Of a stretch of DNA of 64,000 nucleotides, positions 64 to 30,449 are shown one piece after another; the first letter of the stretch is position 1; each line of letters opens with the position of its first letter. Position numbers and translations under genes: made by a program. Under the pieces are notes generated by a model. The model was not told where the DNA came from. It saw nothing but the letters and a program-made list of their open reading frames with translations, and ran no database searches. The DNA is from Pseudomonas azotoformans. Its GTDB lineage: Bacteria > Pseudomonadota > Gammaproteobacteria > Pseudomonadales > Pseudomonadaceae. The stretch covers positions 496,001 to 560,000 of the forward strand of contig NZ_LT629702.1 in assembly GCF_900103345.1 (NCBI RefSeq). The letters are read 5' to 3'.

Positions 64-2406
64 ATGCAGTTTTTTGATCGAAAGAACGAGCCTGCGCCGA
101 GGTCTCTTTGTGGGGGGCAGGCCAGAGCCGCCAGGCACAAACTGCTAAGGTACTTTCAGTTGGACCCGCTGGAGCGCTCGCAGACGCGATTGTCCGACAA
201 TATGATGACGCTGAATGGGGCCGATACTCATGCCGCCCTCGCGCGACTTTTTTCGGGAAAGTGCGCGTTCTGTGAGACGTTGACTATTACGGAGGTCTAT
301 CGCTTTCGACCCCGCTCTTCCGCGACGCCCGAGGCTGATAACGGTCATTTGTATTACACCTGGCTGGCCACTGCATGGGAAAACATCTACCCAATCTGTA
401 GGCGATGTATTCCACGCCAGCGCGAGTATTTCCCAGTCGCGGGTCGGCGAGCGCCCTTGCCTAGCATTGAGCAACTGACCCGCTTTGCCAATAAGGGGGA
501 GGGGCTTTGGGGAGACTATCCGATTGATGAAAAGACCCTGTTGCTTGACCCTTGTCGTAACTCAAGCTTCGACAATCATTTCTTGCCTTCGATTTCAGGC
601 GCGCTCATCGAAATGAGCAGGATGGGTAGGGCTACGATTGAACATTTTTCACTGAATCGCCCGCAATTGGTTGCGGCACGAAAGGCACAGCTGAGCGGGT
701 ATCGAGATGCCCTTCTCATCCACGGGCTACCCGATTTACATTTGTATCAGGTTGACAACGCCTCACTGTTCGATTTTGCCAGGATGGAATTCGGAGGTTC
801 GTGGTATTTGCTATGTCGCCAGATTATTGCCCATCTCTCCACGATATTTGGCCTGGAGTTGGACGACTCTCGCGCCAGGATTGGCCATTCGTTCCAGCTG
901 ATCTTCAGTAATCCACAGTTTGAGAACCATCGTGAAGATCTGTTCGAATGGTTAGAAGGCGAAAATATCAGTCGTCTTCCAATTCCAGAGAAAAACTCCC
1001 CCGAGGCGACAGAGCCCCAACAGGCAGTGGGTGTAGATAAACCTGTTGTTCCACCTCCCGTTTACCCCGTCCTGCGTTCAATCGAGTTGAATCACTTCAA
1101 GTCCATCGAACATCTCAAGTTGCACCTGGCGCAACCGTCAAGTGAGGTACTGTCCGGCGAGGTGCAACAACCAGCCATGTTGATTCTCGGGGAAAACGCC
1201 ACGGGCAAGAGTTCGATTCTTGAGGCTACAGCGCTCGCGTTGTCCAGTGTGATGACCCGCAAGTCGCTGAAGCTAGAGGCGGGTGAATGGGTGCTGGATC
1301 CGAAGCAGTTGGGTGCGTTGAACCAGGAACGACTGACTTCTGCGCAGGTTCGCCTGAGTTTTGATAACGGCCGTCAGTCGGTGCTTGATATCGATGCGGG
1401 CGGCTGGAAGCCCTTGAGGCGATCGTCAAAGGTTCCGCCGGTGTTTGCCTATGGTGCGTTCCGCCAATTTAGGAAACACGGTGGGGCTTACCAGCCTGAT
1501 CATTGCATTACCAACCTTTTTCATTCAGACCAACTGCTGCCCGATCCCGAGCCCTGGCTGGTAAACCTTGCCAGCCCGGGTGAGTTCGATGATGTGGCAC
1601 GCGCATTGCGGCTGATCCTGGCAGTCCAGGAGGAATTCAACGTCTTTATAAAGTCTGCGGACGGGACACAGTGCCTGATCGTTACACGACATGCCGATCA
1701 GGAAAGCCAGACACCGCTCAGCCAAGTGTCCTCGGGCTATCGCGCCGTGTTGGCAATGGCTTGCGACATCATGCGTCGGCTAATGGATCGCACCATCAAC
1801 CCGCACTACCAAAGCCTGGAAAACGCCCGCGCGATCGTATTGATTGATGAGGTGGAGGCGCACCTGCATCCACGTTGGAAAATTCAGATCATGGGGGCGT
1901 TGCGTGCCGCGTTGCCAAATGTGACGTTCATTGTCACCAGCCATGACCCCTTATGTGTGCGCGGCATGCATCACCGTGAAGTCGTCGTGGTGCATCGCAA
2001 CGGTAGAACGCCAGACAACAACAGTCGGCATTCGGTACGCATTGAACAACTGAAAGATCTGCCCGATATCACCCAGTTAACCGTCGAGCAGTTGCTGACG
2101 TCTGATTTTTTCAGCCTGGCCTCCACCGACCAGCCGCTGATGAACTTGAAGTTGGCCAAGGTCGCTGACTTGTTGAGTGCAAGCAATGCTGGTGAAGACC
2201 TGGATGCGGATAAGGAAGCAGTGGTGGCACTGTTCAAGCAGCAAATCAACGATGTGTTGCCCGTTGGTAGTACGGAGGGGCAGCGATTGGTACAGACGGC
2301 GGTGGCGGAGTTTCTTCAGGACCGGGCAAAGGCTTCCAGCGAGAAGTTGAAGGATCTGAATGTGAAAGCAAAGGCAAAAATCCGGGCGTATCTGGAGAGT
2401 TTTTAA
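64..2406 (+). CDS. HNH-like/AAA ATPase fusion, Septu PtuA-like (putative anti-phage)
   Basis: A 780-residue ABC/SMC-type ATPase, probably the ATP-sensing half of a Septu-like defence pair. Numbering is from the ATG at 64, which sits 9 bp after AGGG; an in-frame ATG at 55 is too close to that site. Residues 60-130 form an HNH-like zinc module (CAFC at 67-70, WEN with N107, CRRC at 112-115). The catalytic His position is Arg80, and the Asn following the second Cys pair is Ile116. The ATPase follows: Walker A GENATGKS 376-383, signature LSQVSSGYR 552-560, Walker B VLIDEVEAHLHP with D595 and E596, and switch H627. The domain order HNH then ATPase in one chain is unusual, since classical PtuA has no nuclease domain. 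Base composition is visibly less GC-rich than downstream genes, suggesting acquisition. Family assignment is inference; the motifs are direct observations. Confidence 0.8.
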   Translation: MQFFDRKNEPAPRSLCGGQARAARHKLLRYFQLDPLERSQTRLSDNMMTLNGADTHAALARLFSGKCAFCETLTITEVYRFRPRSSATPEADNGHLYYTWLATAWENIYPICRRCIPRQREYFPVAGRRAPLPSIEQLTRFANKGEGLWGDYPIDEKTLLLDPCRNSSFDNHFLPSISGALIEMSRMGRATIEHFSLNRPQLVAARKAQLSGYRDALLIHGLPDLHLYQVDNASLFDFARMEFGGSWYLLCRQIIAHLSTIFGLELDDSRARIGHSFQLIFSNPQFENHREDLFEWLEGENISRLPIPEKNSPEATEPQQAVGVDKPVVPPPVYPVLRSIELNHFKSIEHLKLHLAQPSSEVLSGEVQQPAMLILGENATGKSSILEATALALSSVMTRKSLKLEAGEWVLDPKQLGALNQERLTSAQVRLSFDNGRQSVLDIDAGGWKPLRRSSKVPPVFAYGAFRQFRKHGGAYQPDHCITNLFHSDQLLPDPEPWLVNLASPGEFDDVARALRLILAVQEEFNVFIKSADGTQCLIVTRHADQESQTPLSQVSSGYRAVLAMACDIMRRLMDRTINPHYQSLENARAIVLIDEVEAHLHPRWKIQIMGALRAALPNVTFIVTSHDPLCVRGMHHREVVVVHRNGRTPDNNSRHSVRIEQLKDLPDITQLTVEQLLTSDFFSLASTDQPLMNLKLAKVADLLSASNAGEDLDADKEAVVALFKQQINDVLPVGSTEGQRLVQTAVAEFLQDRAKASSEKLKDLNVKAKAKIRAYLESF

Positions 2407-2409
2407 CTT

Positions 2410-3495
2410 ATGCGGTATGTGCAGCGAAACCTCGAAGAACTCCCTGAAGCGCTCGCGCTGACCAATGGCAGAAATCTGGCGATCGAGGCGGAACTTGCCG
2501 CCTTGGCCGTGTACTTTGAGGCAAAAAAGAAAGGGAAGCTCGTAAAGGCTGATACTGCACCGAAGAAGCGCACTGCCCATGCAGATTCTGAGGAAAAGGA
2601 GCTTGTAGCAAAGTTTGATCTCTACGGGCACGCGAGCGTCCGAGCAAAGCTCAATGACATGTTCCATGGTAAATGCGCCTACTGCGAGAGTTTTTATCGG
2701 TCCACATCAGCCATGGAAGTCGAACATTACCGTCCAAAAGAAGGTGTTGTGCAGGACAAGGGACACACCGGTTATTGGTGGTTGGGCATGGCGTGGGACA
2801 ATCTCTTGCCCAGTTGTATTTTTTGCAATCGCTTGAATACCCACGACACACCCACTCTGTCAGCCAAGTTGACGACACTGCTCGGTGACCCGGGAGAATT
2901 CAGCGACTCACGCAAGGTCGTGACTGGCAAGGGCAACCATTTTCCGGTGTTGGGGGTGCGTGCCCACGACGCAGCAAGGGACTATTCCAGAGAGCTTCCT
3001 CTGCTGTTGGATCCTTGTCGGGACAATCCCTCGGAGCATCTGCGCTTTTACATCGAGCCTACCAATATCATCGGTTTGATACTGCCGATGAAGGGCGAGT
3101 CCGGCGGCTTACCCGCTCAAAAACTCATTACGGATATGCTGCCGAAATTCAAGAAGGAACTAACTGAGGCCTTGATGGATGGGCTCAGCCTGCGGGGGGC
3201 ATTCTCGATCCATATCTATGGCCTGAACCGGCTGGGGTTGGTGCAGGATCGTACTCGCGTACTGCGCCATTTGAGATTTATGGAGGGTCAGGTGGTTGAT
3301 CTGAGCAAGGTCATTACAGATTTGGAATCGCGACCTTACGATTCCAACTATCAGGTTGACAATCAACGCATTCTCAAATGTCTGAACGACCTCCTTGACC
3401 GTACGATGCGGCAGATGACATCGATGGCTGATGACCACGCGCCTTACTCCATGATGGTGCGCGCTTACCTCAAAGATCTGAAGAAACGACTTTGA
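2410..3495 (+). CDS. HNH endonuclease, PtuB-like (TIGR02646-type) effector
   Basis: A 361-residue protein whose start is 3 bp after the ATPase stop, so the two are almost certainly co-transcribed. A GGAG ribosome site lies inside the end of the ATPase gene. The HNH module is intact: CAYCE at 89-93, EVEHYRPK with H106, WDN with N131, and CIFCNR at 136-141. Spacing matches the PtuB/TIGR02646 family of Septu and retron-Ec78 systems. The first 85 residues are Lys/Glu-rich and the last 200 are helical without a recognised motif, making it longer than a minimal PtuB. Its HNH region resembles the degenerate one in the preceding gene (WLATAWENIYPIC against WLGMAWDNLLPSC), suggesting duplication. Nucleic-acid cleavage controlled by the ATPase is inferred. 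The gene faces the polyamine-type transporter genes convergently, 37 bp apart. Confidence 0.82.
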   Translation: MRYVQRNLEELPEALALTNGRNLAIEAELAALAVYFEAKKKGKLVKADTAPKKRTAHADSEEKELVAKFDLYGHASVRAKLNDMFHGKCAYCESFYRSTSAMEVEHYRPKEGVVQDKGHTGYWWLGMAWDNLLPSCIFCNRLNTHDTPTLSAKLTTLLGDPGEFSDSRKVVTGKGNHFPVLGVRAHDAARDYSRELPLLLDPCRDNPSEHLRFYIEPTNIIGLILPMKGESGGLPAQKLITDMLPKFKKELTEALMDGLSLRGAFSIHIYGLNRLGLVQDRTRVLRHLRFMEGQVVDLSKVITDLESRPYDSNYQVDNQRILKCLNDLLDRTMRQMTSMADDHAPYSMMVRAYLKDLKKRL

Positions 3496-3532: not shown

Positions 3533-4687
3533 TTAATGCACCCCAGCCGCCTTGTTCAGATCGCTTTCAGCCCATTCGGTATACACACACGCATCCGCCG
3601 TGGCCCAGCGCACCCGCACCGGGTCGCCGGCCTTGAGCGGCATGCCGGCGGCGGACAGTGCCTTGACCGTCATCGAGGTGCCGCCAAGGGTTTTTACGCT
3701 GCAGGTCTGGCTTTCACCGAGGAACAATACCTCGCCGACGATGGCGGACACTTCGTTCCAACCGGCTGCCAAGGGTTCGAGGTTGGCCTGCGCCACGCAC
3801 AGCGCCAGGGCCTTTTCCGGGCGCACCATCAGCAGCACATCCTGTTCGCTGCGTAGCCCGCTGGTCAGGCGGATCGACAGCGATTGCCCTTCAAACGACG
3901 CCGCTGCATTACCTTGGGCCTTGAGCTTGAGGAAGTTGGAGTTGCCGAGGAAAGACGCGACAAACGCATTCGGCGGGTTCTGGTACAGGTCGAAACCACT
4001 GCCCAGGCCGACGATTTTGCCGTGGCTGAAAATCGCGATGCGCTGGGACAGGCGCATGGCTTCTTCCTGGTCGTGGGTCACGTAGACGATGGTGATGCCC
4101 AGGCGCCGGTGCAGCTGGCGCAGTTCGTCTTGCAGGTCTTCACGCAGTTTTTTGTCGAGGGCGCCAAGGGGTTCGTCCATCAGCAGGATGCGCGGTTCGT
4201 ACACCAGCGCTCGGGCGATGGCCACGCGTTGCTGCTGGCCGCCGGAGAGTTGCGAAGGGCGGCGGTGGGCGAACGGTTCCAGTTGCACCAGCTTGAGCAT
4301 GGCGTCGACGCGCTTTTCACGCTCGGCGCTGGCCAGTTTGCGGATCGCCAGGGGGAAGGCGATGTTGTCGCGCACCGATAAATGCGGGAACAGCGAGTAG
4401 CGTTGGAACACCATGCCGATGTCACGCTTGTGCGGCGGCACGTTGACCAGGGATTGGCCGCCCACCAGGATCTCGCCGCTGCTGGGGGTTTCAAACCCGG
4501 CGAGCATCGACAGGGTGGTGCTTTTGCCCGAGCCGCTGGAGCCGAGGAAGGTGAGGAATTCGCCGTCCTGGATGTCCAGCGAGATGTTGTCCACGGCGGC
4601 GAATTCGCCGTAGTACTTGTTCAGGTTGCGCAGGCTGACCAGGGGTTGGCCAGGGTTGCGAGTGGGGTCTTTGATCACGGCACTCAT
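3533..4687 (-). CDS. ABC transporter ATP-binding protein, spermidine/putrescine type (PotA-like)
   Basis: A 384-residue cytoplasmic ATPase of the polyamine/iron-type importer family. Walker A GSSGSGKST is at 49-57, the LSGGQQQRVA signature near 147 and Walker B ILLMDEPLGALD near 168, followed by a switch TVYVTHDQ-type segment and a C-terminal TOBE-like region typical of PotA/FbpC. It is the last gene of the minus-strand set binding protein, permease, permease, ATPase, with 17 bp to the preceding permease. The location inside a GntR-controlled catabolic island suggests it imports that pathway's substrate rather than a housekeeping polyamine. Family assignment is firm; the substrate is not known. 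Confidence 0.93.
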   Translation of the reverse strand: MSAVIKDPTRNPGQPLVSLRNLNKYYGEFAAVDNISLDIQDGEFLTFLGSSGSGKSTTLSMLAGFETPSSGEILVGGQSLVNVPPHKRDIGMVFQRYSLFPHLSVRDNIAFPLAIRKLASAEREKRVDAMLKLVQLEPFAHRRPSQLSGGQQQRVAIARALVYEPRILLMDEPLGALDKKLREDLQDELRQLHRRLGITIVYVTHDQEEAMRLSQRIAIFSHGKIVGLGSGFDLYQNPPNAFVASFLGNSNFLKLKAQGNAAASFEGQSLSIRLTSGLRSEQDVLLMVRPEKALALCVAQANLEPLAAGWNEVSAIVGEVLFLGESQTCSVKTLGGTSMTVKALSAAGMPLKAGDPVRVRWATADACVYTEWAESDLNKAAGVH

Positions 4688-4704
4688 GGGTTAATCCTCG
4701 GCGC

Positions 4705-5514
4705 TCAAGCGCGGGTTTCAGTGCGTCGACGAGCGACGGCGGCAATCACCATGACCAGCACCGACAGGCCGATCAGCAGCGTCGAGGCGACGGCGATCAC
4801 TGGCGTCAGGTCCTGGCGCAGGGTGGTCCACATTTTCACGGGTAGGGTTTGCAGGGTCGGGCTGGCCATCATCACGCTGAGTACCACTTCGTCCCAGGAA
4901 ACCAGGAAGGCAAACAGTGCACCGGCGACCATGCCGGGGCGGATCGCCGGAAAGGTCACCTTGAACACCGCCTGCAAGCGTGATGCGCCGCAGATTACCG
5001 CGGCATCTTCAATCGACTGGTCGAACAGCTTCAGCGAGTTGATGATCGAGATGATGGTGAACGGCAAGGCGACGATCACATGGCTGACCACAAACGCGAA
5101 CATCGTGCCGGTGTAGCCGAGCTTGAGGAACAACGCATACACCGCCACGGCGATGATCACCAGCGGCACGATCATCGGCAGGGTGAACAGACCGTAGAGC
5201 AACTCACGGCCGGGGAAGCGCCCACGCACCAGCGCAAATGCGGTGGGCAAACCCAGGGCGACGGCGAACACGGTGGTCAGCACCGCCACCTTGAGGCTGG
5301 CCATGGCGGCGTTCATCCAGTCGGCATTGGAGAAGAACTGGCCGTACCATTTCAGGGTCCAGCCCGGTGGCGGGAACACCAGCCATTGGGATGAGCCGAA
5401 CGACAGCAACACGATAAACACGATCGGCAGCAACAGGAACAAGCCAATCAGCCCGGTGGTGGTATAGAGGCCCAAGCGCATCCTGCGGCTCATGGCATTG
5501 GGAGTCAGCAGCAT
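4705..5514 (-). CDS. ABC transporter permease, PotC-like
   Basis: A 269-residue inner-membrane permease with about six hydrophobic segments. An EAA-type cytoplasmic loop (EDAAVICGASRLQAVFKVTF, near residue 175-195) docks the ATPase. It is encoded between the other permease (6 bp away) and the ATPase gene (17 bp), giving the two-permease layout of polyamine-type importers. The start ATG at 5514 lies just behind the stop of the upstream permease. It should form a heterodimer with the product of 5521-6450. Substrate unknown. Confidence 0.92.
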   Translation of the reverse strand: MLLTPNAMSRRMRLGLYTTTGLIGLFLLLPIVFIVLLSFGSSQWLVFPPPGWTLKWYGQFFSNADWMNAAMASLKVAVLTTVFAVALGLPTAFALVRGRFPGRELLYGLFTLPMIVPLVIIAVAVYALFLKLGYTGTMFAFVVSHVIVALPFTIISIINSLKLFDQSIEDAAVICGASRLQAVFKVTFPAIRPGMVAGALFAFLVSWDEVVLSVMMASPTLQTLPVKMWTTLRQDLTPVIAVASTLLIGLSVLVMVIAAVARRRTETRA

Positions 5515-5520
5515 GACGGC

Positions 5521-6450
5521 TTACCTCGCGTTGCTGGCGCCAACCGGGGATTCCGGCTGGAGCTTCAGGTAGAAGTAGAACAGCACCAGCGTGATGAAGA
5601 TCAGCAGCGCCGCGCCGGCACTGGCCAGGCCCCAATTGAGGAACGATTGCACCTGCTGGATGATGAACTCGGGCAGCATCATGTTCTGCGCACCGCCGAG
5701 CAACGCCGGGGTGACGTAGTAACCCAGGGACATCACGAACACCATCAAGCCGCCGGAAAACAGCCCCGGCCGGCACAGCGGCAGGAACACCCGGAAGAAG
5801 TTTGTCCAGGGGCTCGCGCCGCAGATCGAGCCGGCCTGCAGGATCATCGGGTCGATGGCCTGCATGGTCGCCTGCAACGGCAGCACGATGAACGGAATCA
5901 TGATGTAGCTCATGCCGATCACCACGCCGGTGAGGTTGTGCACCATCTCCAACGGCTGATCGATGATGCCCATCGCCATCAACGCTTTGTTGATCACCCC
6001 GGAGGCCTGCAACAGCACCAGCCAGGAATAGGTGCGGGCGAGCAGACTGGTCCACATCGACAGCAGCACGATACTCAGGATCCAACGGCCCCAGCCACGC
6101 GGTACCAGGGTGATCGCCCAGGCCAGCGGGAAGCCCAGCAACAGACTGAACAGCGTCACCAGGCCGGCAACGGAAAACGTATTGAGCAACACCCGCGCAT
6201 AGGCCGAGTTGGCGAACAGTTGCTCATAGTTGCCCAGGCCTGGCACCGGCTCCAGCACCCCACGCAGCAACAGCCCAATCAGCGGTGCGAGGAAGAACAG
6301 ACCGAGGAACAGCAGGGCCGGGATCAGGTTGCTCGACCCCCGCCAGCGCTGCGCCAGGGACGGTGCCCCGACGTTGCGGGAAACTGCGCCGGCAGCGCCA
6401 AGGGCGCTCCCGGTCGGCGTGCTTGCCGTCATTTTCATTTGACTAGCCAT
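5521..6450 (-). CDS. ABC transporter permease, PotB-like
   Basis: A 309-residue inner-membrane permease. A short polar N-terminus (about 40 residues) precedes the first membrane segment LIPALLFLGLFFLAPLIGLL. About six segments follow, with an EAA-type loop (LQAGSICGASPWTNFFRVFL) near residue 205-225. The gene overlaps the end of the binding-protein gene by 16 bp, implying translational coupling. It pairs with the PotC-like permease downstream. An internal ATG (residue 6) is an alternative start. Confidence 0.92.
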   Translation of the reverse strand: MASQMKMTASTPTGSALGAAGAVSRNVGAPSLAQRWRGSSNLIPALLFLGLFFLAPLIGLLLRGVLEPVPGLGNYEQLFANSAYARVLLNTFSVAGLVTLFSLLLGFPLAWAITLVPRGWGRWILSIVLLSMWTSLLARTYSWLVLLQASGVINKALMAMGIIDQPLEMVHNLTGVVIGMSYIMIPFIVLPLQATMQAIDPMILQAGSICGASPWTNFFRVFLPLCRPGLFSGGLMVFVMSLGYYVTPALLGGAQNMMLPEFIIQQVQSFLNWGLASAGAALLIFITLVLFYFYLKLQPESPVGASNAR

Positions 6451-7460
6451 TCATTCCACCGTGTCGCAATGGTCGGGCCGTTCTTGGCCCAGTAGGCGAA
6501 ATCGAGGGTGATCTGGTCCTTGGCATACGCCGTCGGCAGGTTGGGCGCAAGGACCGAATCCAGGCGCTGTACGCTGTCGATGTTCACCGGTGCATAAGCG
6601 GTCAGGTTGGAGAAGTCGGCCTGGCCCTTGGCGCTGCTGGCACTGGCCAGGAACTTCATCGCGGCGGCCTTGTTCTTGGTGCCTTTGGGCACGACCAGGA
6701 TGTCGGCCATTACCAGGTTCTGTTTCCAGCTCACGCCCACCGGTGCGCCGTCTTCCTGCAAGGCGTGGATGCGGCCGTTCCAGAACTGGCCCATGCTGAC
6801 TTCGCCGGAGGCCAGCAACTGTTGCGATTGCGCGCCGCCGCCCCACCAGACGATGTCTTGCTTGATGGTGTCGAGTTTCTTGAAGGCGCGGTCCAGGTCC
6901 AGCGGGTAGAGCTTGTCGGCGGGGACGCCGTCGGCCAGCAGTGCCAGTTCGAGCACGCCGGGGCTTGGCCATTTGTAGAGGGCGCGTTTGCCGGGATAGG
7001 TCTTGGTGTCGAACAGCGCGGTCCAGTCCTGCGGCTTGCCGGCGCCGAGCTTGCCTTCGTTGTAGCCGAGTACGAAGGAGAAGAAGAACGAGCCGACGCC
7101 GTGGTCGGAGACGAAGCGCGGGTCGATCTTGTCGCGCTGGATCACCGAGAAATCCAGGGGTTCGAGCAGCCCTTCGGCGGCGGCGCGCAAGGCAAAATCA
7201 GCCTCCACATCCACCACGTCCCATTGCACGTTGCCGCTTTCGACCATGGCCTTGAGTTTGCCGTAGTCGGTCGGGCCGTCCTGTACCACGGTGATGCCGC
7301 TGGCCTTGCTGAAAGGGTCGGCCCACGCCTGCTTCTGTGCGTCCTGGGTGCTACCGCCCCAGCTCACGAAGTTGACGCTTTCGGCCGCCATGGCGGCATG
7401 ACTGGCGGTGGCCAGCAAACCCGCGAACAGGACTGCGCTGATACGTGTGTTCAACACCAT
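6435..7460 (-). CDS. Periplasmic substrate-binding protein, PotD-like family
   Basis: A 341-residue extracytoplasmic binding protein and the first gene of the four-gene importer operon. The start at 7460 is chosen because GAGGG lies 7 bp upstream and a good signal peptide follows (MVLNTRISAVLFAGLLATASHA, cleavage near AMA-AES). The mature part begins VNFVSWGGSTQ, as in PotD/PotF-type proteins, with a WWGGGAQSQQLLASGEV segment near 210. A CA-rich Crc/Hfq motif lies upstream and a TGGTATTCCA operator about 115 bp upstream. It presumably selects the substrate degraded by the neighbouring flavin-dependent pathway; this is inference. Confidence 0.9.
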   Translation of the reverse strand: MVLNTRISAVLFAGLLATASHAAMAAESVNFVSWGGSTQDAQKQAWADPFSKASGITVVQDGPTDYGKLKAMVESGNVQWDVVDVEADFALRAAAEGLLEPLDFSVIQRDKIDPRFVSDHGVGSFFFSFVLGYNEGKLGAGKPQDWTALFDTKTYPGKRALYKWPSPGVLELALLADGVPADKLYPLDLDRAFKKLDTIKQDIVWWGGGAQSQQLLASGEVSMGQFWNGRIHALQEDGAPVGVSWKQNLVMADILVVPKGTKNKAAAMKFLASASSAKGQADFSNLTAYAPVNIDSVQRLDSVLAPNLPTAYAKDQITLDFAYWAKNGPTIATRWNEWLVK

Positions 7461-7472
7461 TTTTACGCCCTC

Positions 7473-7484
7473 ATTGTTGTGTTT
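7473..7484 (-). promoter_or_regulatory. Crc/Hfq CA motif before PotD-like gene
   Basis: The minus strand reads AAACACAACAAT, ending 5 bp before the GAGGG ribosome site of the gene starting at 7460. It resembles the AAnAAnAA motif through which Hfq with Crc blocks translation in Pseudomonas during catabolite repression. The match is imperfect. Confidence 0.45.
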
Positions 7485-7558
7485 ATGAGCGGGGCTTTTG
7501 AGTGCCCGCCTATCGGGAGCAGTCGGTGTGGATGGCCTTTGCAGGGTCATCCAACCTG

Positions 7559-28533: not shown

Positions 28534-29397
28534 ATGTGCGTCAGTTCGTTGAAGTGGGCGTTGGATCATTCGGCGCAGGTGTTGGAACGTCACGGGGAAT
28601 TTGAATGCAGTATTCGCGCGCACTACGCCATTCTGCTGGGTCCCTATTCAAAACGACCGTTTTTCTACAAGACAGCGCTGAAGTTCAACCGTTTGATGGT
28701 GTCTTTCACGCTGCTGAGTGAATATTTCTCCAAGCCCGCGCCATTGTTGTCCGACGTGAAAGCGTTCTGCGTGGCTCGCGGTTTCTGTTCCAGGAACAGC
28801 CTGGAGTCGATCTTCCTGCTGTTCAGGACCCTGGGGTTCATGAAGGTCGCTGGCCACCCTGACGACAGCCGTTTTCGGGTGTTCAGCCCATCGCCGCAGG
28901 CTTGCCATGAAGTCAGGTCGATGCTCAATTCCGTGGTACAGCCGCTGGGACCAATGTGCCCCAGTGAAGCGCAGGTCCAGCGGATGAGTGAGTTGGACGA
29001 CCGAGCCTTCCTGGCACTTTATTTCAAAGGTTTTGCCACCCTTCTTTCAAATAAGCTGACCATCGATGTATTGCTGCCGGAATGTGACTGGCTGGTTAAC
29101 CGCGATGCCGGACATATGCTGATGTTGGCGATTTATAACGATGCCTGTTCCTTGGACTGTCAGGGCGCAAGTTTCAGGACGTCTTCTTATCTTTCACTGG
29201 CGATGCGACTTTCAGTGTCCAAGACCCATGTGATTCGTCTGGTTCAGGAGGGTGTTGAAAAAGGTTGCTTTAAAGTGCATTCCAAGACGCAGTTGGAAGT
29301 ATTGCCGCCCTTTGTAAAGTTGGTGCGCCGTTTCATGGCGTATTCATTTGCAATCACCCTGCTTAGTATCGAGTTGGGCCAAGCCAGCAAAATATAG
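28534..29397 (+). CDS. Unrecognised protein with two winged-helix-like segments
   Basis: A 287-residue protein that I do not recognise. There is no signal peptide or clear membrane helix. Residues about 70-110 (LLSDVKAFCVARGF, SLESIFLLFRTLGFMKV) and about 215-255 (SSYLSLAMRLSVSKTHVIRLVQEGVEKGCFKV) both read like helix-turn-helix plus wing, so a DNA-binding regulator with two related domains is plausible. It is Cys- and Phe-rich for such a protein. AGGG lies 11 bp before the ATG. The diguanylate cyclase gene starts 26 bp after its stop, so the two are probably one operon, perhaps linking transcription to cyclic-di-GMP. Coding potential is good because the reading frame is long in an AT-richer stretch. 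Confidence 0.7.
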   Translation: MCVSSLKWALDHSAQVLERHGEFECSIRAHYAILLGPYSKRPFFYKTALKFNRLMVSFTLLSEYFSKPAPLLSDVKAFCVARGFCSRNSLESIFLLFRTLGFMKVAGHPDDSRFRVFSPSPQACHEVRSMLNSVVQPLGPMCPSEAQVQRMSELDDRAFLALYFKGFATLLSNKLTIDVLLPECDWLVNRDAGHMLMLAIYNDACSLDCQGASFRTSSYLSLAMRLSVSKTHVIRLVQEGVEKGCFKVHSKTQLEVLPPFVKLVRRFMAYSFAITLLSIELGQASKI

Positions 29398-29423
29398 GCA
29401 ACTTATGCGCAGGGAGTGTTGAG

Positions 29424-30449
29424 ATGCCGGCTGACTTAAAGCTCAGGCCAAGGATGCAGAGGTTATTGTCGCCCGCTGTTGCCCAGGCGGAATGGATAGG
29501 CCTGATTGCCTGGTGGTGGGTGCTCTTGGTGGATCCGGTGCTGGAGTTCGGGTGGTACACCGTGCTCATTACCGTCTGTTTGACAGCGTTGTGTCGATTT
29601 CACCGGCGGTTGGCCAATTTCCTGGCCTGGCGGGCGTTCGGTGTGGTCTATATGGCGGTGTTGGCCGGCGGCTTTGCGTTGGTGATGCAGACCGATCAGG
29701 CGTTGCAGGTATTTGCTCTACCGCTGGCGGTGATTCTGGTGCTGAGCAGTGCCTTGCTCTTTATCGCAGTCCAGGATTTCTTGATAGGCGCTGCATTGAT
29801 CTGGTCGATGCTGTGGCCAGCTGTTCATATGTCGATCTACGCCGGGGTTGAGGTTTACCTGGTGATGTTCTGCCTGGCGTCGGTGTCGATCGGCTTTATC
29901 CTGAATTATTCCTACGTGAAGAACCTGCGCTCTGTGTTGCTGGTCGAGAGTGAGTTCCGGGAGCTGGCAGAAACGGATTACTTGACCTCCATCCTGAACC
30001 GCAGGGCCTTTATCGAACGTTTCGCCAAGGTGATCGCCGAGGGGCAGTGCGGCTATTTCATGATGTTGGATATTGATAGCTTCAAGTTGAAAAACGACCA
30101 GTTTGGCCATGATGTCGGTGACAAGATTCTCTGTGCGATGGCTCATTGCCTGAAAGCCACCCCTGGCAGCGACAGCTTCGGCAGGATCGGGGGGGAGGAG
30201 TTCGGTGTCTTGCTGGTGGGTGATGACCCTTGGGCTGCCACGGATTTTGCCGCGCGCCTGCTGCAAGCGATTCGCTGCAGTGTCCCGCCACCCCATCACT
30301 ACACGTGCAGTGCCGGTATGACGCATTTCTCGGCAGGCGCCGATATGTCAGCGGTACTCAAGTGCGCCGACCGCAACCTGTATGCCGCCAAGCGCAATGG
30401 CAAGGACTGCGTGTACCTGGATGGCGAGCCGGTGACTGCTTCCAGGTGA
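29424..30449 (+). CDS. Membrane-anchored diguanylate cyclase (GGDEF)
   Basis: A 341-residue protein with about six hydrophobic segments between residues 22 and 165, forming a membrane sensor-like region of no named family. A GGDEF domain follows: DYLTSILNRRAF, MMLDIDSFKLKNDQFGHDVGD and active-site GGEEF at 256-260. The catalytic motif is intact, so synthesis of cyclic-di-GMP is expected. No RxxD inhibitory site is seen five residues before GGEEF. It is downstream of the unrecognised wHTH-like gene, with a GGAG ribosome site. Confidence 0.9.
   Translation: MPADLKLRPRMQRLLSPAVAQAEWIGLIAWWWVLLVDPVLEFGWYTVLITVCLTALCRFHRRLANFLAWRAFGVVYMAVLAGGFALVMQTDQALQVFALPLAVILVLSSALLFIAVQDFLIGAALIWSMLWPAVHMSIYAGVEVYLVMFCLASVSIGFILNYSYVKNLRSVLLVESEFRELAETDYLTSILNRRAFIERFAKVIAEGQCGYFMMLDIDSFKLKNDQFGHDVGDKILCAMAHCLKATPGSDSFGRIGGEEFGVLLVGDDPWAATDFAARLLQAIRCSVPPPHHYTCSAGMTHFSAGADMSAVLKCADRNLYAAKRNGKDCVYLDGEPVTASR

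Follow-up and report, generated by a model that had tools for sequence, protein, structure and literature searches.

The window analysed here, a stretch of 64,000 nucleotides of Pseudomonas azotoformans (contig NZ_LT629702.1, positions 496,001 to 560,000), contains at positions 64 to 3,495 a two-gene pair of the Septu type, in which the ATPase, PtuA, bears at its N-terminus a PtuB-like module that, judged by its residues, has lost the catalytic His of the nuclease. The pair is real and correctly located. Open reading frame (ORF) calling places ORF A, with an ATG start, at 64..2406 and ORF B at 2410..3495, both on the + strand and separated by an intergenic gap of 3 bp. ORF A encodes psiPtuB-PtuA, an ABC ATPase of 780 amino acids (aa) with an N-terminal pseudo-PtuB module, and ORF B encodes PtuB, 361 aa, by family a free HNH nuclease. 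The pair is probably an anti-phage operon of the Septu type, belonging to a clade of its own and with an ATP-gated PtuB, in which the silenced PtuB copy would act as a docking or substrate-holding subunit.

The N-terminal module comprises ORF A residues 1-256 (64..831, + strand), which are predicted to adopt the PtuB fold. In the fold comparison, ORF A residues 1-339 and ORF B match the identical 11 PtuB chains from solved PtuAB complexes. Residue conservation in both proteins was counted in 121 aligned rows, the window and the nearest 120 of 409 homologues. The zinc ribbon, formed by CxxC (C67, C70) and CxxC (C112, C115) at 262..408 on the + strand, retains its Cys in every covered row, 117/117 for Cys67/70 and 119/119 for Cys112/115. 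At the position of the HNH catalytic His the module has Arg80 (codon 301..303, + strand), and the 118 rows that cover this column carry Arg in 103 cases, Gln in 6, Leu in 4 and His, Lys, Pro, Thr and Phe once each, P0085 being the sole row with His. The PtuB/HNH fold is present, whereas the catalytic His expected after beta-1 is not, and Pfam listed no HNH for ORF A. Window-clade modules carry other residues not only in place of the general-base His but also in place of the preceding Glu and of the Asn that follows the last Cys, whereas the zinc Cys, the FRP and the WxN core hardly change, even where the identity of a row to the module of the window falls to 33%. By these residues the N-terminal module is a pseudo-PtuB in the window clade, and the idea of an intact second active site in the fused HNH of this clade was rejected on account of the replaced catalytic His. 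An earlier note on this DNA had given the ATPase an HNH module of its own; the fold stands, as PtuB, but a working HNH does not. Docking or holding of the substrate would be the most likely role of the pseudo-PtuB, because the fold, the zinc site and the FRP/WxN core are conserved but the catalytic residues are not.

The free PtuB, on the other hand, has its active site complete, with Glu105, His106, Asn131 and Asn140 each identical in 121/121 rows; the codon of the catalytic His106, in the EH motif, lies at 2725..2727 (+ strand). In ORF A the module is followed by a low-confidence linker at about residues 304-339 (973..1081, + strand; block means of the predicted local distance difference test, pLDDT, of 53-66 over residues 301-339) and by the ABC/AAA ATPase part of PtuA (1072..2403, + strand). 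The latter is recognised by Pfam as AAA_21 (7e-15) and AAA_15 (2e-12), with SMC_N from residue 337 under the Pfam cut-off, and matches PDB PtuA chains with E-values of 3e-19 to 5e-12. It contains the Walker A motif GENATGKS (1189..1212, residues 376-383), the ABC signature-like SSGYRAV (1729..1749, SSG being residues 556-558), the Walker B and D-loop AIVLIDEVEAHLHP (1831..1872, Walker B being residues 593-596) and the switch-His region TSHDPL (1936..1953, the switch His being residue 627), all on the + strand. Walker A, the SSG signature, Walker B and the switch His are near-invariant over the 121 rows, which confirms the complete set of ATPase motifs that the earlier note had read in ORF A.

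Three 'PtuA1' models of PADLOC-DB 2023 match ORF A over the whole length, PDLC00291 with 953 bits (ORF A residues 1-779 on model positions 1-772 of 773), PDLC00288 with 531 bits and PDLC00292 with 392 bits, and ORF B is matched at full length by the PtuB1 model PDLC00329 with 388 bits. These full-length matches bear out the proposal of a Septu-like pair. The pair has what defines Septu type I in PADLOC, namely a PtuA ABC ATPase, an adjacent PtuB HNH protein, intact ATPase motifs and the H-N-H residues of PtuB, and by the PADLOC models it is Septu type I and not a new system. The claim that a fused HNH-ATPase with a free HNH protein would be a distinct architecture had to be given up, and the fused order cannot be regarded as uncatalogued, since the three PtuA1 models span the whole fused protein. 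However, fused and plain PtuA share one name in PADLOC, and its PtuA1 labels read 'AAA ATPase domain' only, with no mention of the HNH module or its lost active site. Within the literature searched, the conserved pseudo-PtuB in the ATPase, the chromosomal slot and the NACHT-linked form described below are new in detail; a description of an HNH-fused PtuA was not found in those portions of the open-licence PMC literature to which the search was limited.

The PtuAB effectors of the retrons Ec78/Eco7 and Ec83 (PADLOC Septu type II) are related to the window pair through homology to NF041760 and TIGR02646 that stays below the cut-offs. The NCBIfam retron models reach 108 of 500 bits for PtuA (NF041760, on ORF A) and 33.6 of 150 bits for PtuB (NF041761). 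The earlier note had described ORF B as a separate HNH protein of the PtuB/TIGR02646 type 3 bp downstream; it is a PtuB, but TIGR02646 scores 37.7 bits against a cut-off of 52.15 on ORF B, and does not list ORF A. The Pfam HNH match on ORF B is likewise sub-threshold only. A retron (Septu type II, retron I-A) was rejected because a Pfam scan of the 10 kb that precede the window (nine ORFs; L011, 3.9-14.0 kb), where msr-msd RNA was not searched for, detected no reverse transcriptase family. The PtuA chain of the E. coli Septu PtuAB (PDB 8EEA, Li et al. 2024) has 465 aa, compared with 780 aa in the window. The window genome (G000) itself also encodes a plain pair at 2.51 Mb (L012:6798-9058), with adjacent PtuA (472 aa) and PtuB (281 aa) of the same families as the window pair, but its PtuA lacks the N-terminal module and matches PDLC00295 with 405 bits. 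Plain and fused Septu forms thus coexist in one genome.

To place the pair among its relatives, we searched a sample of 398 genomes of the genus with the PDLC00291 profile (E<=1e-60) and obtained 30 matches in 29 genomes, of which 26 are full fused PtuAs; L046-L048, matched in the ATPase part only, and L040 (genome G237), whose PtuA ends early and lacks a PtuB, are excluded from the 26. A count of the fused order across genomes had been proposed in the earlier note, and in this sample all 26 full fused PtuAs are followed directly by a PtuB with an intact EH..N..CN motif. The catalytic His is absent from 23 of the 26 modules and retained in L041, L042 and L043. Of 22 pairs in which the gap between PtuA and PtuB was measured, 19 have one of -4 to 3 bp, and for the other three the first possible start codon had been taken. 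Across these 22 pairs (231 comparisons, uncorrected for shared descent) the identities of the ORF A homologues vary together with those of the ORF B homologues, with a Spearman coefficient of 0.78. In a phylum-wide sample, 5/398 genomes have matches at E<=1e-40, including the window genome and G237 with its early-ending copy. In G237 (L040/L086) the fused PtuA match stops after model position 551 with no adjoining PtuB, and a Tmn gene lies beside it. The plain-PtuA family PDLC00295 was found in 6/398 genus genomes at E<=1e-80, the window genome included. Among 72,556 plasmid records there are 24 with a match at E<=1e-40; the match covers at least 80% of the query in 12 of them, and 13 of the 24 plasmids are conjugative. 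Close peptide patterns turned up no relative on viral contigs.

A tree of 115 modules and PtuBs was inferred by a quick search without bootstrap and with the His columns omitted, and 53 of its 112 inner branches have support below 80. It places 29 window-clade modules on one branch, with 100 in the Shimodaira-Hasegawa-like approximate likelihood ratio test (SH-aLRT), and 25 of 31 PtuBs, the window's included, on a separate branch (SH-aLRT 99). Fifteen of 17 PtuB partners of fused PtuAs, again with that of the window, lie on this PtuB branch, away from the fused modules. The idea that the window module is a recent copy of its own neighbouring PtuB was rejected on account of these separate branches. 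A single origin of all fused modules is unsupported, given these branch supports and the three changes that PtuB as a whole needs.

Neighbours of related pairs come from wide regions that lie outside the slot described below; there are 14 of these, and flanks were scanned or compared in 10 (L075, L077, L080 and L089 were left out). In four loci, a gene for 1273-1275 aa lies upstream of the fused PtuA and overlaps its start by 14 nt (L073:2900-6724, L074:3506-7327(-), L076:2803-6630 and L078:2429-6250). Three of these PtuA-linked genes match the profile of the NACHT antiphage protein HyoA (NF058534) with 1230, 1198 and 1184 bits, around the NCBIfam cut-off of 1200, the matches ending at profile position 1248-1253 of 1430, and the L078 gene is 49-76% identical to them. 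HyoA-like genes occur in 18/398 genus genomes, 4 paired with PtuA and 14 unpaired. A C-terminal D-x-R...ELK motif, which we take to be a PD-(D/E)XK nuclease-like motif, is present in 14/14 unpaired proteins (11 by regular expression, 3 by eye) and in 0/4 paired ones; Pfam gave no nuclease family in the C-terminal region of five full-length HyoA-likes. The 1.5-kb flanks of the 14 unpaired genes contain no PtuA or PtuB relative, though in one of these genomes, G532, the contig also encodes, about 6 kb from the HyoA-like gene, a fused PtuA that retains the His. HyoA-like gene, fused PtuA and PtuB are thus a candidate three-gene NACHT-Septu operon which, if true, would join NLR-like sensing (NLR, nucleotide-binding leucine-rich repeat receptor) to a Septu effector. 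A patatin-like phospholipase gene (L079:4199-6208) lies 24 nt upstream of another fused PtuA. Defence-type neighbours of relatives, besides the HyoA-likes, are HamAB (Hachiman) in L087, Tmn in L086 and a DndH-like gene in L091. A KAP NTPase in L088 and a DNA polymerase III alpha in L090 were not counted as defence. The linkage to defence neighbourhoods in other genomes, which the earlier note had named as a check, is thus seen for relatives. In the window genome itself genes of transport and metabolism, and not a defence island, surround the pair.

In the mechanism that we propose, the ATP state of PtuA ABC dimers would serve to sense infection, with PtuB as the nuclease that acts on tRNA or DNA. 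Each PtuA would bear a complete, catalytically silenced PtuB copy, with the zinc fold kept and Arg in place of His, and this pseudo-PtuB may pair with the active PtuB on the ATPase, or hold its place, so that cleavage would occur only once the free PtuB is brought into register. Mutations of the Walker motifs of PtuA or of the H-N-H of PtuB abolish the immunity given by E. coli Septu EcB88, which cleaves tRNA-Tyr upon infection (PMC13096335), and another Septu is reported to target nicked DNA (PMC11555353). By analogy, the window pair would be an ATPase-gated nuclease that acts through abortive infection, and its family, its distribution and the neighbours of its relatives suggest a function in phage defence.

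Several observations weigh against a silent docking module. Position 95 of the module, which aligns with the conserved His119 of PtuB, is His in 111/119 covered rows and might still allow some metal or substrate chemistry. The column counts come from a biased set, the nearest 120 of 409 homologues. Moreover, among the best 120 homologues of the fused PtuA of L041, a sister set in which 3 lack the region and 117 have the motif, 88/117 retain the catalytic His and 52/117 both this His and the Asn of C-x-x-C-N; since so many sister PtuAs retain the His, a silent module is not general to the fused architecture. In the tree, the partner PtuBs of L044 and L045 fall among the fused modules, as do four PtuBs of plain or ATPase-only matches, which leaves the deep branching order unsettled. 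Going by these residues, fused PtuA comes in dual-HNH and pseudo-HNH forms, the window having the latter, and what PADLOC treats as one Septu type splits into three forms, plain, dual-HNH and pseudo-HNH, whose differences can be tested. The pseudo-HNH form is a natural experiment on a non-cutting nuclease fold, with a silent copy on the ATPase and an active copy free. His95 and the sister PtuAs would also fit a module that is a second active nuclease with other residues, and hence a system with two cutters, but the modules of the window clade have other residues where the general-base His, the Glu ahead of it and the Asn past the last Cys would stand. In the plain PtuB encoded at 2.51 Mb, the stretch from the RP to the YWW motif lacks a His, which is therefore not generally required there in PtuB; we consider two cutters unlikely. 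That the pair is an ordinary Septu and the module a functionless vestige of an old fusion would agree with a catalytic column that varies over the fused rows (R, Q, C, S, T, L, M, W, K, F), yet plain decay would not leave zinc Cys and an FRP/WxN core that are near-invariant down to 33% identity, and a vestige is similarly improbable.

A different possibility is that the pair serves other sensors as an effector cassette, which a partner (a NACHT protein, perhaps others) switches on, with an unlinked or host trigger in the two-gene form. The four HyoA-likes that overlap the fused PtuA end before the nuclease-like motif of the other 14, which have no PtuA or PtuB relative close by, and together with the patatin-like gene that precedes the pair in L079 this points towards such a role. 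On the other hand, the four paired proteins are one related group and perhaps a single event, G532 has its His-keeping fused PtuA near an unpaired HyoA-like, and at E<=1e-20 no HyoA-like gene turns up in the window genome; we give this explanation little credence. A bolder version is conceivable though doubtful: the cassette would be portable, the pseudo-PtuB in every ATPase subunit would be a placeholder through which the active PtuB is licensed only upon activation, and in one lineage the cassette would have taken over from the nuclease domain of a NACHT (NLR-like) sensor. Finally, a housekeeping pair for DNA or tRNA repair, rather than phage defence, would suit a pair that stands alone beside transport and metabolic genes, but the patchy presence of full fused copies (26/398 genus genomes), the low G+C, the divergent alleles in one slot, the plasmid copies and the defence neighbours elsewhere make it very improbable. 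The docking or substrate-holding subunit of an ATP-gated Septu remains the reading that we favour.

The pair occupies a defined chromosomal slot, between permease, flavin reductase and luciferase-like genes on one side and a pot-like transport operon on the other. This operon (potA, potC, potB and potD homologues by ORFs; 3533..7550, - strand), whose gene names we assume from the type of sequence, forms the right flank of the slot and lies outside the system. Pot-side neighbours are common to L004-L009, L063, L081-L084, L092 and L111-L114. Seven named loci were fetched, and the operon adjoins the pair in 6/6 of those with a full fused PtuA (L004-L009), L010 being matched in the ATPase part only, and also in G304; the named loci were not added to the genus count, as the sets overlap. 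In the genus sample, 13 of 21 window-clade copies occupy the slot. A potA homologue is in view for 12 of the 21, G372 shows the permease, the flavin reductase and a 211-aa neighbour gene to the contig end, G340 shows the 211-aa neighbour gene alone and 7 show none of these within the fetched stretch. In the slot, identity to the window is 83-99% for the flanks, taken from the pot and ribA homologues, compared with 42-55% for PtuA and PtuB, and such swapping of divergent alleles at a fixed site would be typical of defence genes. In G308 (L065:1-2212) the slot is empty, the potA homologue being followed directly by the flavin reductase and luciferase-like genes. The pot-side slot is a place to seek other defence genes in these bacteria. 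In L063 (G304), an 827-aa ORF (L063:4612-7095(-)) lies between the 211-aa gene beside potA and PtuB, and its first residues look, by eye, like a P-type ATPase pump.

The difference in base composition pointed out in the earlier note was also found, G+C being 54.0% in ORF A and 52.5% in ORF B against 61-63% in the next four genes, alongside the patchy presence of the pair. A second stretch of low G+C lies at window positions 28534-30449, where a 287-aa ORF without a Pfam match (52.1% G+C) stands with a GGDEF protein (57.2%).

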